DNA of 33,162 nucleotides from Flavobacteriales bacterium. GTDB lineage: Bacteria; Bacteroidota; Bacteroidia; Flavobacteriales_D; Crocinitomicaceae. How positions within the stretch are numbered: the first letter of the stretch is position 1; every line of letters begins with the position of its first letter. Below the pieces are notes generated by a model. The model did no database searches. It worked only from the letters and a program-made list of their open reading frames with translations, and had not been told where the DNA came from. A program made the translations under genes and the position numbers. This document shows, one piece after another, positions 58 through 33,162 of the stretch. The DNA lies in assembly GCA_947491305.1 (NCBI GenBank), contig CANLIL010000032.1, positions 1-33,162 on the forward strand. Reading direction: 5' to 3'.

Positions 58-3000
58 TTAACGTAACAACAACACATTTCCTCGTTTGACATGTGTTTGT
101 GTGCCATCCGTTTTAATCTTGATAACCCAATTATACGCACCATTTTGAACAATTCCACCCTTGTAACTTCCGTCCCAACCAACTTCTTTGTCAAATGATT
201 CGAAAATTAATTCTCCCCATCGGTTGTAAATTTGCATTTGATACTCAGCTACTAGTGAAGTTAAAATTGGTTTAAATACATTGTTGTATTCGTTTCCATC
301 TGGTGTAAATGTGTTCGGAACATAGAAAATCAAACTGTTGTCAAAGAAGATGGTATATTGAGCTGTGTCCACACATCCTTTATCCGATGTTGCGGTCAAA
401 GTAATTAAAAATTCATTCAAGGTGTACATCGGATACGTGTACATTCCAGGTTGGAAGAAATTGTACAAACCATTATCTCCCATGTCCCATTCATAACTTA
501 CAGCGCCTGTTGTTGTGTTTAAAATTTCTGTTTCTGGATTCGAAGTATCTAACGTAGTTGGGTTCGCACTAATCCCAGCAGTAGGAGTAGGGTTGATGCA
601 AATAATCGAAGGATAGGTCACAGAATTAGAACATCCAATTGGCGATTCTACGGTTAAACTCACGTCAAAACAACCTGGACTGTTATAAGTATTTGTAATG
701 TTATTATTTCCAGTAGCGCTGTTACCATCACCAAACTGCCAGGTGCTGATAAATTGCTCGTCTGAAGTATTCGTAAATTCAATCGTTGTAGGATCGCAAC
801 CAACGGTATCAGACACATTGAATGAAACTTGAATCTGATCTGGTTGATCAATAAAGCATGGTAATACAAAGACACAATTCTGTGCATCGGTAATCGTTGC
901 AGTGTAGTTTCCAGTAACAATTCCACTGTTGATTGAAGAAGTACTTCCGTTCGACCAGCTATACGCATACGGAGTTGTACCTCCTGTTGTATTCAAGGTG
1001 ATACTACCATCAGAATAGGCATAGCATAGCGGTTCAATGGTGGTATAAGTCGAAATTAAAGGCAACGGTTGAATTAATGAATATGTATATTGACGGTTGC
1101 ACAAGTGAGCATCAGTAATTGAAAGAGTATATGTCCCGATAATTACATTGGTTAAATCTTCGTTTGTTGTGTTATTCGACCATAAATAGGTATATGGTGC
1201 TGTTCCTCCAACAGTTGTTAAATTTATAGATCCATCACTGAAACCATTGCAACTAATATTATCAATAATAACATTTGAAGTATCTAAAAGTGCCGGTTCA
1301 ATAATCGTATCTGTTTTTGATAATACACAGTTGTTGTTATCCGTAATCGTTAAGGTGTAAATTCCAATTGGTAAATTAGAAAGGTCTTCAGTTATTGCAG
1401 TAGTATTCCATGAAAAATCATAAGGTATTGTTCCACCCGTAATTGTTGCATCAATCGCACCAGTTGTTCCACTAAAGCACAAAACATCAGAAGTTACAAA
1501 GTTGATGTTCAATGGTGCTAGTGGTTGTAAAACTTCAGAAGTGTCGTTAACGATACAATTGTTGGAATCTTTAACAATTACAGTATAAACACCTGCAATT
1601 AAATTGGAAGAGGCAGGAGTTAAAGCTGAATTGCTCCATAAATAAGTATAAGGAGCAATTCCTCCAGCAGCAACAACATTAACAGATCCAACAGCATCAC
1701 CATAACAAGGATTATCAATGTGTGTAGTTGAACTCGTTAATAATGTTGGTTCATTTACAAAAATAGTAAGAGAGTCTTGACAACCTTGATTATCGGTCAC
1801 AATAACGGAATAACTTCCTGTTAAAATTGAATCATTCAATGCATTTTGATCGCCATTACTCCATAAATAGGAATAGCCGGGTGTTCCTCCATTTGCAACT
1901 ACTGTAGCTGTTCCTGTTGCATCTCCATGACAAATAACGGGAGTTGTTGAGCCATTAATGACTAGTAATGTTGGTTGTGTGATTGTTCCAATAATTGAAT
2001 CAATACAATTATTGGTATCTGTAACAATTACAGCATACGTTCCAAAAGGATAATTGATTAAATCTTGATTAGTTGTAGAATCTGACCAAGAATAGGAGTA
2101 TGGTGCAGTACCTCCACTTGGTGTTAAATTAATTACACCATTACTTCCGCCGAAACATGAAACATTGGTTATGGAAGTTGCTAATGATAGTGCTGCAGTT
2201 GGTTGTGTAATGGCAACGGTGACAGGAAATGTACAATTATTTCCATCTTTTATTGTAACAAAATAATTACCTGCAATTAAGGAGTCAATATCTTCTGTTG
2301 TTTCACTTGACAACCATTGAAACGAATAATTCCCAACACCGCCAGTTGGAGTGATGTTGATTGAACCCGTACTATTACTAAAACATTTAACGTTGATGTG
2401 ACTTTCAGAAGCTGAAACAACAGTTGCAGGTTCAAAAATGGTGTCAGATAATACTAAAATACAATTGTGACTGTCCTTGATGGTTACTGTATATATTCCT
2501 GCAGTTAAATTCTGTAAATCTTGAGTAAGTTGATTGTTGTTCCATAAATACGTGTAAGGAGCAATTCCTCCGCCGTTTGTTAGATCAATAGAACCTGTTG
2601 CAAATGTTTTGCATAAGACATCAATTGAACTAATAGATCCTGAAACAGGCGTTGCAGGTTGATTAATAACAACTGAAATAAATGCGCCACAAGTATTTGT
2701 ATCTGTTACATTTACAGCATATGTTCCAATTGGTAGATTACTCAAATCTTGCGTTGTTGCTCCTGTGTTCCAATCATAAGCAAATCCAGGTGTACCGAAT
2801 TGAACAGCTAAGTTAACAGTTCCATCACTTCCTGCAAAACATTGAACATCTGTTTTTACTATAGATAATATCATTGAATTATTTGGATCTAAAACTGTTG
2901 CAGAAATCGTGTCATTACAGCCGTTTGCATCCGTTACTAACACATAATAAAACCCTTGATACAAACTGTCTAAATCGGGTGTTGTTTTGAAATTATTCCA

Positions 3001-6000
3001 AAGATATGTATAAGGCGTTGTTCCACCTATAACTGTTAAATCGATTGTACCTTGAGTTCCACCAACACACAACGCGTCAGTATGTGTAACAGCTAGCGTT
3101 AATGGAAGGATTGGTTGAGTAACTAGATACGTTGAACTATCCATACAACCTTTTGAATCTGTAACAATCACTTCATAACTCCCTAAAATAAGAGAATCAA
3201 TGTCTTGTGATAGTTGTCCATTTGACCAAGAATAGGTATAAGGTGAAGTTCCACCAGTAACTGATAAATTAATTGCACCATCAGATCCGTTGTGACATTT
3301 TACAGCATCAATTACCGCTGATAATGCAAGTGGAGCAAGTGGTTGAGGGATGTTAATGGTATCACTTGTTAAAACACATAAGTTTGCATCCGTAATTGTT
3401 ACTTGGTAATCTCCTGCCAAAAGAGCAGAAACATCTTCTGTTGTTGCAGCATTGGTCCAGGAAAAAGTGTAAGGTGCTGTTCCTCCCGCTGGAGAAATGT
3501 TAATTGCTCCACTTGCATCTCCAAAACAATTGATTGGCGTTACAATAGAGGTATAACTTAAAAAATTAAGTGGTTCACTGATTTGAATCGTGTCTTGAAT
3601 CGTGCATAAATTGGCATCTGTAATGGTAACAGCGTATTGCCCACTTAACAAGGAATCAATATCTTGAGCAGTTTGACCATTCGACCAAGAATAGGTATAA
3701 GGAGCTGTTCCACCACTTACTGTTAAATCAATAGATCCAGTTGAAAATCCTTTACATAAAACATTAATTTGTGTATTGCTAGAAGTTAGTGGAGCAATTG
3801 GCTGTGTTACTAGTTTTGTTAAGCTATCAATACATCCGTTAGTATCTGTTACAATTACTGCATAGTTTCCAAAAGTTAAGGAATCAATGTCTTGTGACGT
3901 TTGACCATTCGACCAAGAATACGTGTAAGGTGCTGTTCCACCTGTTACGTTTAAATCAATAGCACCATCTGTGCCTCCAAAACACTTAACCGCATCCGTT
4001 AAACCGGTTAATGCAATTGGTGCCAGTGGTTGAGCTACGTTCATCGTATCGGATAGTAAAATACACAAATTAGCATCGGTAATTGTTACCTGGTAATCTC
4101 CTGCCAAAAGAGCAGAAACATCTTCTGTTGTTGCAGCATTGGTCCAGGAAAAAGTGTAAGGCGCTGTTCCTCCCGCTGGAGAAATGTTAATTGCTCCTGT
4201 TGCATCTCCAAAACAATTAATTGGTGTTACTATAGAGTTATAACTTAAAAAAATAAGCGGTTCACTGATTTGAATCGTATCTTGAAGTATGCATAAATTG
4301 GAATCTGTAATGGTAACAACGTATTGTCCACTTATCAAGGAATCAATGTCTTGCGTAGTTTCGCCGTTCGACCAGGAATAGGTGTAAGGAGCGACTCCAC
4401 CACTTACGGATAAATCAATTGATCCAGTAGAAAAACCAGTACATAAAACAGCCACGCTATTTTCTGTTGAACTGATAGGGGCAGGTTGTGTTAATGTGAT
4501 CGATTTTTCTTTGAAACAGCCATTTGCTAGTGAGACAAAAACGGTATACGTTCCAGCAGTTAAATTGCTAAGATTTTGTGTCGTAGCATTATTAGACCAT
4601 CCAAAGGTATACGGAGGCGTTCCACCAGAAATGGATAAATTGATAGAGCCATTGTTACCGCCAAAACAAGATATGTCTTGGTGAATATCGGAAATTTCAA
4701 TATCCGTGGGCTGGGTAAGTGTAATGGATTGTATACTACTGCATGAATTAGCATCTGTAATCGTAACGCTATAATTGCCCGCAGATAAGCTAGTAGCGTT
4801 GGGAAGAGTAGTACCAGTGCTCCATAAATAAGTATACGGACCAACGCCTCCTGTTCCATTAACGGTTACGGAGCCATTGTTGTCGTTGAAACATTTAATG
4901 TTAAATCCATTGTAATTGGAGATATTGGAAAAGTTTCCACCAACAATGGTTGGCTGACTTATTGTAAAAGTATTGCTTACAACACAATTGTTTGCGTCTG
5001 TCACTTGGACAGAATATGTTCCAGCGGCAACATTTGAAAGGGTGCTTCCACTTGCGTTAGTTGACCATAAATATGAATATGGTGCCGTGCCATTGGTTAC
5101 TGCCACACCAACACTCCCATTTGAACCTCCGAAACACGAAACTGGCGTGTTGGAATTCTGATTGATTTGCATGGGTGGTAAAGTACCAACTGTAACGGTT
5201 GTAGTTCCTGAACATCCATTAGACAGAGTTATAGAACAAGTATAGGTTCCAGGGAGTAATCCGGTTGCTGTACTCGTTGTTTGACCTAAGGGATCATTCC
5301 ATAAATACGTAGCGGTTATACCTGCGTTTCCATTTTGTAAATTGAACAAAGCGGTGGCAGTGCCAGTATTGGATGTACTGCAAAATGCCCGAGTGGAGGT
5401 GGAGGAAAATGTTACATCACTCGTTACTGTTACACTCACAGTAACTGGAGGGATAGCAACATTTGTAACGGGATTTGGTGATGAGTTTACGGTTACAGAA
5501 TAGGTTCCAGGCACTAAATTTGAAACGCTTTGCGTAGTTGGGTTTCCTGGGGAATTCCACAAATAGGTATACGGTGCAAAACCTCCGATTGGGGTTACTT
5601 GTGCCGTTCCGTTAGGTTGACCACAGGTGGAACTGGTTGCGGAAGTGGAAGCCGTAAAGTTGATGACACAATTGATGCTTCCGGTAGAAGGATTCGCGAA
5701 GTTAGGTTGTAAAGATATTGTGCCCGAACCACCTGAAAAATTTGTGGTTAGCAAAATGTAAACTTGTCCAGCAATTGCATTAGGAATATCGACAAATTCA
5801 GTACTAGAGCCAGAAAATGAACAATCAATTGGCGCGGCAGCATTTAATATTGGACAACCAGCAGCGACACTCGTAAATGGACCATATAATGCAAAGTCAA
5901 CATCGGAGAAACCGATATTATTGTTACCTGTTTGTGTCAATACCAAGTGTATGGATCCACTTGTAGCAATTCCTAATGCAAGCCAATTCGCATTTGGTGT

Positions 6001-6165
6001 TACACCCAAACAACCATATTGACCTATACTAGGTGTTCCAGTTAAGCTAGGATAGGAACCACTTGTAGAGCAACCAGCTTGCGCGCAAGTATAGCCAGGA
6101 TTTACTTGAGTAAAAATTAAAGTATTAAAAAGAAGGAAATAAATTATTAATAACTGCTTAATCAT
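58..6165 (-). CDS. Giant SprB-repeat surface adhesin with T9SS type B C-terminal sorting domain
   Basis: Predicted 2035-residue exported protein. Residues 1-20 form a signal peptide ending near FTQ. Residues about 20-165 are a Cys-containing N-terminal domain that I recognise from T9SS cargo but cannot name. Residues about 165-1775 hold about 21 SprB-type repeats of roughly 76 residues; the core is GGTAPYTYSWSNG, then a G-Y-V-TITD-x-N-x-C strand and a closing QP or EP. The first two units are degenerate. Two PKD-like domains follow (about 1777-1945; WQFGDG and YEWDMGD motifs). The end (about 1946-2035, FYVPNTFTPDG to the terminus) matches the CHU_C / gliding-motility-associated C-terminal domain that directs type IX secretion. 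SprB in Flavobacterium johnsoniae is a mobile gliding adhesin; whether this protein serves gliding, attachment or other surface binding is not shown here. No partner gene is adjacent. Ends 57 bases from the window edge. Confidence 0.93.
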   Translation of the reverse strand: MIKQLLIIYFLLFNTLIFTQVNPGYTCAQAGCSTSGSYPSLTGTPSIGQYGCLGVTPNANWLALGIATSGSIHLVLTQTGNNNIGFSDVDFALYGPFTSVAAGCPILNAAAPIDCSFSGSSTEFVDIPNAIAGQVYILLTTNFSGGSGTISLQPNFANPSTGSINCVINFTASTSATSSTCGQPNGTAQVTPIGGFAPYTYLWNSPGNPTTQSVSNLVPGTYSVTVNSSPNPVTNVAIPPVTVSVTVTSDVTFSSTSTRAFCSTSNTGTATALFNLQNGNAGITATYLWNDPLGQTTSTATGLLPGTYTCSITLSNGCSGTTTVTVGTLPPMQINQNSNTPVSCFGGSNGSVGVAVTNGTAPYSYLWSTNASGSTLSNVAAGTYSVQVTDANNCVVSNTFTISQPTIVGGNFSNISNYNGFNIKCFNDNNGSVTVNGTGGVGPYTYLWSTGTTLPNATSLSAGNYSVTITDANSCSSIQSITLTQPTDIEISDIHQDISCFGGNNGSINLSISGGTPPYTFGWSNNATTQNLSNLTAGTYTVFVSLANGCFKEKSITLTQPAPISSTENSVAVLCTGFSTGSIDLSVSGGVAPYTYSWSNGETTQDIDSLISGQYVVTITDSNLCILQDTIQISEPLIFLSYNSIVTPINCFGDATGAINISPAGGTAPYTFSWTNAATTEDVSALLAGDYQVTITDANLCILLSDTMNVAQPLAPIALTGLTDAVKCFGGTDGAIDLNVTGGTAPYTYSWSNGQTSQDIDSLTFGNYAVIVTDTNGCIDSLTKLVTQPIAPLTSSNTQINVLCKGFSTGSIDLTVSGGTAPYTYSWSNGQTAQDIDSLLSGQYAVTITDANLCTIQDTIQISEPLNFLSYTSIVTPINCFGDASGAINISPAGGTAPYTFSWTNAATTEDVSALLAGDYQVTITDANLCVLTSDTINIPQPLAPLALSAVIDAVKCHNGSDGAINLSVTGGTSPYTYSWSNGQLSQDIDSLILGSYEVIVTDSKGCMDSSTYLVTQPILPLTLAVTHTDALCVGGTQGTIDLTVIGGTTPYTYLWNNFKTTPDLDSLYQGFYYVLVTDANGCNDTISATVLDPNNSMILSIVKTDVQCFAGSDGTVNLAVQFGTPGFAYDWNTGATTQDLSNLPIGTYAVNVTDTNTCGAFISVVINQPATPVSGSISSIDVLCKTFATGSIDLTNGGGIAPYTYLWNNNQLTQDLQNLTAGIYTVTIKDSHNCILVLSDTIFEPATVVSASESHINVKCFSNSTGSINITPTGGVGNYSFQWLSSETTEDIDSLIAGNYFVTIKDGNNCTFPVTVAITQPTAALSLATSITNVSCFGGSNGVINLTPSGGTAPYSYSWSDSTTNQDLINYPFGTYAVIVTDTNNCIDSIIGTITQPTLLVINGSTTPVICHGDATGTATVVANGGTPGYSYLWSNGDQNALNDSILTGSYSVIVTDNQGCQDSLTIFVNEPTLLTSSTTHIDNPCYGDAVGSVNVVAAGGIAPYTYLWSNSALTPASSNLIAGVYTVIVKDSNNCIVNDTSEVLQPLAPLNINFVTSDVLCFSGTTGAIDATITGGTIPYDFSWNTTAITEDLSNLPIGIYTLTITDNNNCVLSKTDTIIEPALLDTSNVIIDNISCNGFSDGSINLTTVGGTAPYTYLWSNNTTNEDLTNVIIGTYTLSITDAHLCNRQYTYSLIQPLPLISTYTTIEPLCYAYSDGSITLNTTGGTTPYAYSWSNGSTSSINSGIVTGNYTATITDAQNCVFVLPCFIDQPDQIQVSFNVSDTVGCDPTTIEFTNTSDEQFISTWQFGDGNSATGNNNITNTYNSPGCFDVSLTVESPIGCSNSVTYPSIICINPTPTAGISANPTTLDTSNPETEILNTTTGAVSYEWDMGDNGLYNFFQPGMYTYPMYTLNEFLITLTATSDKGCVDTAQYTIFFDNSLIFYVPNTFTPDGNEYNNVFKPILTSLVAEYQMQIYNRWGELIFESFDKEVGWDGSYKGGIVQNGAYNWVIKIKTDGTQTHVKRGNVLLLR
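3113..4486 (-). repeat. 687-bp tandem block duplication inside the adhesin gene
   Basis: Three consecutive SprB units (about 229 codons) are repeated head to tail. Two independent anchors give exactly the same offset: TGGTAATCTCCTGCC at 3404 and 4091, and GGTTCACTGATTTG at 3572 and 4259, both 687 bases apart. From each first anchor about 100 bases are identical apart from one change. Block limits (about 3113-3799 and 3800-4486) are approximate. The duplication keeps the reading frame. Confidence 0.85.
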
Positions 6166-32969: not shown

Positions 32970-32977
32970 TATATTTG
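32970..32977 (+). promoter_or_regulatory. Strong -7 element of the tRNA promoter
   Basis: TATATTTG followed by CACCC is a full TAnnTTTG match in the form I recall upstream of many Bacteroidota stable-RNA genes. Transcription would begin near 32983, giving a leader of about 85 bases before the mature tRNA, which contains the duplicated tRNA fragment. No clear -33 TTG. Confidence 0.7.
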
Positions 32978-33014
32978 CACCCTCAAATCTAACGCTTGAT
33001 TAGAGGATATTTAT

Positions 33015-33058
33015 GGCGAGGTAGCTCTCCCGAAAGTTATCGGGAGGTTAGAGCGCAG
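33015..33058 (+). pseudogene. Partial tRNA duplicate (acceptor 5' strand and D-arm) with a hairpin inserted in the D-loop
   Basis: GGCGAGGTAGCTC (33015-33027) and GGTTAGAGCGCAG (33046-33058) repeat the first third of the tRNA at 33068 exactly, except that the four D-loop bases AGTT are replaced by the 18-base TCCCGAAAGTTATCGGGA. This makes a perfect 7-bp hairpin (33027-33033 / 33040-33046, loop AAGTTA) nested inside the intact D-stem GCTC/GAGC. There is no anticodon arm, T-arm or 3' acceptor strand, so it cannot be a tRNA by itself. Nine A/T bases separate it from the real gene. Confidence 0.9.
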
Positions 33059-33067
33059 AAAAAATAT

Positions 33068-33141
33068 GGCGAGGTAGCTCAGTTGGTTAGAGCGCAGGAT
33101 TCATAACCCTGAGGTCGAGAGTTCAAATCTCTCTCTCGCTA
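33068..33141 (+). tRNA. tRNA with CAT anticodon, probably elongator tRNA-Met
   Basis: Complete 74-base cloverleaf: acceptor GGCGAGG/TCTCGCT (with G-U at 1-72 and 7-66), D-stem GCTC/GAGC with loop AGTTGGTTA, anticodon arm CAGGA-TTCATAA-CCCTG, variable AGGTC, T-arm GAGAG-TTCAAAT-CTCTC, discriminator A. The 3' CCA is not encoded (CAAAGG follows). The anticodon stem lacks the three G-C pairs of an initiator. It has an A-C opposition at 31-39. A tRNA-Ile2 with lysidine-modified CAT cannot be excluded by eye. Confidence 0.93.
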
Positions 33142-33162
33142 CAAAGGAAAGCCCAGTTTAAC

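Follow-up and report, generated by a model that had tools for sequence, protein, structure and literature searches.

The window analysed here, the whole of the 33,162-nt contig C32 of genome G000, ends with a tRNA-Met gene preceded by a partial copy of itself that is broken by a palindrome in the D-loop. This leader copy likely represents the 5' arm of a tRNA-riding GIY-YIG element that has no nuclease gene at this locus, being a remnant or a non-autonomous form. In Bacteroidota, intact tRNA genes recurrently adjoin partial copies of themselves: a 5' copy with a hairpin interrupting its D-loop, a 3' copy with hairpins interrupting its T-loop, or both. A gene coding a minimal (~75-115 aa) UPF0213/SLX1-like GIY-YIG protein is often found between the intact tRNA and the partial copy. 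The odd leader is an instance of this class-wide architecture, in which essential tRNA genes are flanked by disarmed self-copies, often beside a nuclease gene. The polarity of the arrangement, its association with nucleases and its tandem arrays are documented below. Our confidence is high for the anatomy and recurrence of the arrangement, moderate for its reading as an element and low for the details of mechanism.

Organisation of the tRNA-Met leader

A single tRNA is detected by ARAGORN in the window, an elongator-type tRNA-Met(CAT) at 33068-33142 on the forward strand, which is also recognized by Rfam (RF00005, 67.6 bits). Nothing but this tRNA exceeds the threshold in the Rfam search. The promoter-like element TATATTTGC (32970..32978, +) is identical in the relatives G025 and G016 and corresponds to what we take to be the Bacteroidota -7 type promoter-like motif TAnnTTTG, which 15 of 16 relative loci have no more than 170 nt ahead of the tRNA. 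The leader copy lies between this element and the tRNA, on the same strand. It begins with TAT and a copy of tRNA-Met nt 1-13, the 5' strands of the acceptor and D-stems (33012..33027, of which 33015-33027 is the tRNA part). The 18-nt palindrome TCCCGAAAGTTATCGGGA follows in the D-loop (33028..33045) and leads to a copy of nt 18-30, the 3' strand of the D-stem and the start of the anticodon stem (33046..33058). An A-rich spacer, AAAAAATAT (33059..33067, +), precedes the intact tRNA. The first part of the tRNA's intrinsic terminator is found at 33151..33162 (+), where it is cut by the contig end; the whole stem-loop is present at positions 116-135 of contig C17.

The initial annotation described two direct repeats upstream of the tRNA, and inspection of the window bears out their coordinates: TATGGCGAGGTAGCTC is found at 33012 and 33065 and GGTTAGAGCGCAG at 33046 and 33085. 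It was also right that the D-loop alone is replaced, the 18-nt palindrome standing in place of tRNA nt 14-17. The copy ends at nt 30 and forms no complete cloverleaf, ARAGORN and Rfam detecting only the downstream tRNA.

The leader RNA is predicted to fold with -21.0 kcal/mol (z -4.3), a value reached by none of 200 shuffled sequences. This stable fold would suit a functional RNA leader whose D-arm-like hairpin acts, for example, on RNase P or tRNA-modifying enzymes, or as a stabiliser or attenuator that sets the tRNA level. This explanation, which extends the D-arm mimic of the initial annotation, we consider unlikely. The predicted pairing of the tRNA part is nearly the same with or without the leader, the acceptor stem being one pair shorter in its presence, which counts against such a role; both predictions fall short of the full cloverleaf. 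The competition between two 5' acceptor strands put forward in the initial annotation is therefore not predicted.

At the other extremity of the window, positions 58-6165 (-) hold a 2035-aa repetitive ORF that gives the impression of a large secreted repeat protein of gliding Bacteroidota.

The 3' copy on the adjoining contig

Contig C17 begins with the last 127 nt of C32, and its DNA further on matches, by eye, the DNA that follows the same tRNA in G016. It is thus read as the natural continuation of C32. A 3' copy of tRNA-Met is found there, outside the window (C17:153-195), composed of nt 47-58 with one mismatch, a T-loop hairpin and nt 64-76. The hairpin, TTCCGATAACAATCGGAA, is 18 nt long. 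The copy lies after the terminator of the tRNA and is followed by a repeat of the terminator stem. The intact tRNA-Met is flanked on both sides, by a 5' copy with its break in the D-loop and by a 3' copy with its break in the T-loop.

GUUA and UAAC, which could pair, are present in the loops of the hairpins at 33028-33045 and C17:165-182. A kissing interaction of these loops was set aside as mechanism because the complementarity spans only four bases and could be due to chance.

An assembly artefact, also raised by the initial annotation, would place the origin of the copy in its position at the end of C32 and in the overlap with C17. Both direct repeats are far shorter than the 127 nt of overlap, the copy of G025 is found well inside a contig of 40,961 nt, and the same structure occurs in 8 further genera, so that this explanation is virtually out of the question.

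Conservation of the leader copy

G025, a second species of the genus, carries the leader copy with 42 of 43 positions identical to G000 and a palindrome identical at 18/18 positions, while the upstream non-coding DNA of the two genomes is identical at 110 of 174 positions (Fisher p = 1.2e-6). The copy and its palindrome are conserved, not degraded, between the two species that have them. Such strong conservation would agree with a functional leader, against which stands a G-to-A change in the G025 copy that disrupts one pair of the D-stem. Conversion from the intact tRNA could renew the tRNA-derived parts of the copy, but not the palindrome, and the conservation between G000 and G025 may reflect constraint or recent spread.

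At the same tRNA, G016 has neither the leader copy nor the downstream copy. Absence of the fragment from relatives, which the initial annotation linked to a neutral duplication, is thus the case for G016 and not for G025. Pairwise identities among G000, G025 and G016 in the same non-coding stretch are 63%, 59% and 66%; with the genomes at roughly equal distances from one another, horizontal spread is not separable at this locus from shared descent followed by loss in G016.

The absence in G016 would accord with a neutral relic, namely a partial tandem duplication of the tRNA that was later hit by a dispersed palindrome, was kept by chance and is removed by RNase P. This course of events is rather improbable: the copy has been preserved far better than the flanking non-coding DNA, and its unchanged palindrome is the part that conversion from the intact tRNA could not restore.

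Within each genome the bases preceding the leader copy and those preceding the intact tRNA match (33012-33067 in the window). Both read TATGGCG in G000 and AAACGGCG in G025, suggesting that the two copies evolve in concert.

D-loop-palindrome leaders in other genera

The initial annotation proposed to look for the same hairpin in tRNA D-loops elsewhere. A D-loop-palindrome pattern is matched in 9 of 395 class genomes, each from a different genus, and its reversed-pattern control gives none; seven of the nine are new, since the window and G279 were already known when the pattern was drawn up. Each of the nine leaders starts 47-110 nt ahead of an intact tRNA that agrees with it in isotype and strand: two Val, four with a CAT anticodon, of which two are probably Ile-CAU, one Thr with two tandem copies, one Ala and one Asn. 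The motif TAnnTTTG is present within 130 nt before the leader in 6/9 loci, its exact form being absent over this distance in L340, L343 and L346. The constant position directly upstream of a tRNA on the same strand and the frequent promoter-like motif would both be expected of a functional leader.

A GIY-YIG gene comes right after the tRNA in three of the nine loci (L340, L345 and L346) and is followed by a hairpin-broken 3' copy in two of these, L340 and L345. The other six have no GIY-YIG gene in the DNA examined, which would agree with a neutral relic. Recurrence of the break at the same D-loop position in nine genera and at several tRNA types argues against it.

The tRNA-Met locus across relatives

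The tRNA-Met survey comprised 34 loci of 33 genomes: the two contig ends of the window's locus, 29 relatives and the genomes G012, G028 and G045, included on account of hits seen there earlier. ARAGORN found no tRNA in G006, so that 32 genomes are counted, and short flanks at some loci make misses uncertain. Upstream copies are found in four genomes (G000, G025, G001 and G028), a low frequency for a leader with a function in tRNA expression. Downstream copies are present in eleven (G000, G008, G023, G021, G024, G015, G055, G049, G046, G012 and G028). A GIY-YIG gene follows tRNA-Met in four, at 49-66 nt in G012, G036 and G055 and at 210 nt in G045; the window/C17 locus has none. The antisense control of the survey gave three chance matches in all.

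Two narrow patterns for hairpins in tRNA-Met arms were matched in 1/60 genomes each and two broader ones in 3/60 and 10/60. The broadest of them (10/60) is unfit for counting, as four of its listed sites (L085, L091, L093 and L094) have no tRNA in the locus.

GIY-YIG nuclease genes beside tRNA genes

The window's genome gave 31 tRNA matches, and the loci of 30 were scanned for partial copies. Val(TAC) and an initiator-like Met are the further tRNAs with adjoining partial copies. A GIY-YIG gene is found straight after each of these two tRNAs, and both reading frames enter the tRNA copy and stop inside its hairpin. Three tRNAs with a CAT anticodon were found in this genome, that of the window and two presumed to be initiator-like and Ile-CAU-like. 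The presence of like hairpins in 3' copies behind the tRNA and at the 3' ends of GIY-YIG genes does not favour a function specific to the leader.

A Pfam GIY-YIG search of 40 genomes, G000 included, gave matches in 37. Among the matches listed, 84 with loci or a short reading frame were examined; at least two short broken matches were listed outside these 84. Nineteen of the 84 follow a same-strand tRNA at a distance of up to 150 nt and 11 more at up to 1 kb, five lie upstream of a same-strand tRNA and one is near a tRNA on the opposite strand. For the remaining 48 of these listed matches the DNA examined holds no tRNA within 1 kb; 29 of them feature a UPF0213-like motif and 19 do not. Counted by motif, 29 of the 31 UPF0213-like proteins among the matches listed have no tRNA and two are within 1 kb of one.

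A GIY-YIG tree was built with 151 rows after removal of proteins shorter than 60 or longer than 140 aa and of identical rows. It has a separate clade of 31 rows, none with a tRNA (support 97). Isotype labels, with 'none' counted as one of them, show clustering over the tree (59 changes versus 92 when shuffled, with 0/200 shuffles as low); the alignment has few columns, isotype switches are many, and Asp, Pro and two Gly groups are unclustered. The nuclease clades follow the tRNA type only loosely.

A contig scan with the Met/His-type GIY-YIG clade yielded 249 relatives, from which 79 distinct loci were retained; these belong to Bacteroidota organisms and three 'Chlorobiota' bins. A tRNA is found on the same strand at most 150 nt upstream in 56 of the 79 and within 1 kb in 12 more. 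Eleven loci have no tRNA, four of these with less than 200 nt of upstream DNA, and a tRNA on the opposite strand is present at two of the 79. Among the 68 tRNA-linked loci, 51 have a partial 3' copy and 14 a partial 5' copy, while two more have only a whole second tRNA copy on the 3' side. The 3' copy most often begins at nt 55, in the T-loop (10/53 loci, whole copies included).

Integrases acting at tRNA genes typically leave copies of the tRNA 3' end as their footprint, and repeated integration and loss at a tRNA gene might have left partial copies as attachment-site remnants. This origin is highly improbable: 5' copies broken at the D-loop are not such a footprint, the hairpins would be unexplained and the associated gene seen is a GIY-YIG nuclease.

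The tRNA-Leu locus of G023 has two tandem units, each with nt 1-13, the insert TCCCGATGYATCGGGA, nt 17-26, an A-run and a GIY-YIG gene, followed by the intact tRNA. The A-run occupies the position that matches the AAAAAATAT spacer of the window. The insert reads TCCCGATGCATCGGGA in the first unit, whose nt 17-26 has a mismatch, and TCCCGATGTATCGGGA in the second. The tRNA-Arg locus of G037 likewise has two tandem units, of 295 nt, with nuclease-bearing 5' arms and a different palindrome. The arrangement of G023 and G037 is the layout of the window with the nuclease gene present.

In a PDB profile search the tRNA-associated GIY-YIG proteins matched UPF0213 (9.7e-16), SLX1 (1.5e-7) and I-TevI (0.02), and closer kinship with homing enzymes than with SLX1/UPF0213 was not found. 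The nearest solved relatives are thus UPF0213 and SLX1, the latter a structure-specific nuclease, with I-TevI far behind, so that cutting of hairpins or cruciforms is as plausible as site-specific cutting. NCBIfam gave no match for four of five small GIY-YIG proteins and one match below the cut-off of its family. Viral relatives of the nuclease were sought and none was confirmed among 100 candidate stretches for query A3 and 293 for A4. Comparison of the nuclease to phage records yielded one weak match and to plasmids six, each below 60% identity.

At L113 and L117 the GIY-YIG protein has a C-terminal tail derived from initiator-like tRNA-Met, with hairpin-bearing tRNA remnants alongside and no intact tRNA in the locus. 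Initiator-Met-type nuclease genes that keep the tRNA-derived tail with no intact tRNA close by (G010 and G004) fit cassettes that outlive their tRNA or move. At L333 (G259:C44:276200-279800) tandem GIY-YIG units follow a tRNA with a CAT anticodon, and the palindrome TCCCGATAGCTATCGGGA inside the nuclease gene splits the frame.

Hairpin inserts and dispersed palindromes

Inserts in partial copies were surveyed at 186 distinct tRNA loci, a set enriched for copies. Fragments of less than 90% identity were dropped, as were inserts that took the place of more than 14 tRNA positions. The 62 inserts recovered were reduced to 49 after collapsing, and 34 of these fold in the best 5% of their own mononucleotide shuffles. 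Their left break touches the D-, anticodon- or T-loop in 35/49 cases, versus 21.8 expected (p = 2e-4). The inserts show a polarity: those in the D-loop are found 11 times upstream and twice downstream of the tRNA, those in the T-loop once upstream and 21 times downstream (Fisher p = 2e-6), which is due in part to the copies before the tRNA consisting of its 5' portion and those behind it of its 3' portion. The association of D-loop breaks with the upstream side and of T-loop breaks with the downstream side is a further point against a neutral relic.

Two kinds of insert are recurrent. The first comprises single palindromes near TCCCGATARYTATCGGGA. The second is a double hairpin ending TGCTGACC..GCGTCAGCA, located at or near the T-loop, mostly at nt 53-55, beside several tRNA types. 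The palindrome of the window is one substitution away from TCCCGATARYTATCGGGA, from whose family it presumably descends. TCCCGATARYTATCGGGA is present in 75 of 247 class genomes, and four of 30 loci read have a tRNA within 1 kb and one has tRNA-like flanks. The double hairpin is present in 9/247, with a tRNA within 1 kb at three and tRNA-like flanks at four of 22 loci read. As the palindrome family is dispersed and mostly away from tRNAs, palindrome insertion may be an independent process. The wide dispersal of TCCCGATARYTATCGGGA, with no tRNA within 1 kb at 26/30 loci, is what the neutral relic would draw on for its palindrome. On the whole evidence, the simple relic and leader-folding interference are both weaker explanations than a tRNA-riding element without its nuclease gene.

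Genome G066 is rich in palindromes: it has 14 TGCTGACC..GCGTCAGCA sites (L291, L296-L308), at none of which the locus examined holds a tRNA, and also 35 exact TCCCGATARYTATCGGGA sites.

With up to two mismatches allowed, the palindrome of the window occurs once in its own genome, which rules out a dispersed repeat family there. The looser pattern TCCCGAN{2,12}TCGGGA occurs twice in this genome, and is matched by both the window and a pseudo-tRNA-Val copy at C14 beside a GIY-YIG gene. A viral origin of the palindrome was rejected, there being no exact match in viral contigs. Targeting of inverted-repeat centres by the palindromes was not adopted either, the signal being weak (3/43 contexts with arms of at least 6 versus 0.17 expected; permutation 45/5000).

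Locus L332 (G279:C45:25000-27500) has about five tandem 214-nt pseudo-tRNA-Leu units, the last partly seen, downstream of an intact tRNA-Leu(CAA). Their palindromes are found in the anticodon, variable and T-arm regions.

A model for a putative tRNA-riding element

From these sequences we infer cleavage, homing, mobility and amplification, as well as the role of the hairpins and any role of the RNA. In the proposed course the nuclease would break tRNA genes that have no insert. Recombination through the tRNA-derived arms, whose stretches of tRNA identity would serve this reaction, would then insert or tandemly amplify a unit composed of the intact tRNA and the nuclease gene. The essential tRNA would always be rescued because its intact copy travels in the unit, which would keep the cell alive. 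Hairpins in the arm loops would block recutting, formation of a tRNA from the arms and recombination back. The tandem units seen at several loci fit amplification through the arms. Against the element speak the lack of a nuclease gene at the window and at six of the nine D-loop leaders in the DNA examined, the 48 of 84 GIY-YIG matches without a neighbouring tRNA, the dispersal of the palindrome family and the loose agreement between nuclease clades and tRNA types. The suggestion of the initial annotation that the leader is a relic of an element that targeted the tRNA comes close to what the comparative evidence supports.

A more specific proposal can be advanced tentatively. The arrangement might represent an undescribed class of selfish element in which an SLX1-like GIY-YIG nuclease attacks essential tRNA genes in their loop regions and carries an intact rescue tRNA, its hairpin-armoured arms acting as homology and immunity sites, with the window holding a non-autonomous form; in effect it would be a natural homing-rescue drive on tRNA genes. 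If this mechanism is true, a natural selfish nuclease persists by carrying a spare essential gene, the small GIY-YIG proteins that NCBIfam leaves unnamed acquire a role, and the partial tRNA copies and hairpins gathered around these tRNA genes are explained.

Relation to known systems

Integrative elements at tRNA attachment sites restore an intact tRNA and leave a 3' fragment at the far end. The loci described here are alike in both respects, and differ in the GIY-YIG gene, the 5' copies broken at the D-loop, the hairpins at the breaks and the small size of the units, only ~50-400 nt. Synthetic homing-rescue gene drives couple a nuclease directed against an essential gene to an intact version of its target; in contrast to them, the arrangement in Bacteroidota is natural and based on tRNA genes, and its cleavage step is presumed.

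The closest known system is SegB of phages T4 and T6, described in the available parts of the sources as a free-standing GIY-YIG homing endonuclease of the tRNA region whose gene adjoins tRNA genes of numerous isotypes; the segB 3' end shares microhomology with the 5' end of the tRNA, and tRNA and nuclease are amplified in tandem (PMC13096335, PMC2988022). A GIY-YIG gene beside many tRNA isotypes, microhomology of the 3' end of that gene to the tRNA 5' end and tandem units of tRNA plus nuclease are common to both systems. SegB is phage-encoded, whereas the Bacteroidota genes are chromosomal and nearest in the PDB to UPF0213/SLX1, not to I-TevI. The Bacteroidota cassettes have hairpin-looped partial tRNA copies, and those parts of the SegB sources make no mention of such arms (PMC13096335, PMC2988022). 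As to a nuclease gene at the locus itself, the window and C17 are without one, but it is present at tRNA-Met in G012, G036, G045 and G055. A nuclease family tied to tRNA genes is likewise seen in the related cassettes (68/79 loci) and not in the window.

A survey of GIY-YIG proteins presents stand-alone SLX1-like proteins as minimal forms, and the term 'Bacteroid' occurs 0 times in the available part of its text (PMC1564403). A search of open-licence titles and abstract openings, which is a weak basis for absence, found no earlier account of GIY-YIG cassettes beside tRNA genes in Bacteroidota. CGTC-tagged palindromes without a dedicated transposase are reported, in the part of the source available, from Bacteroidetes among other phyla (PMC3733652). 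The palindromes of the present arrangement resemble these REP-type/CGTC sequences in being short and dispersed, and are distinguished by their recurrence at the D- and T-loops of tRNA copies.
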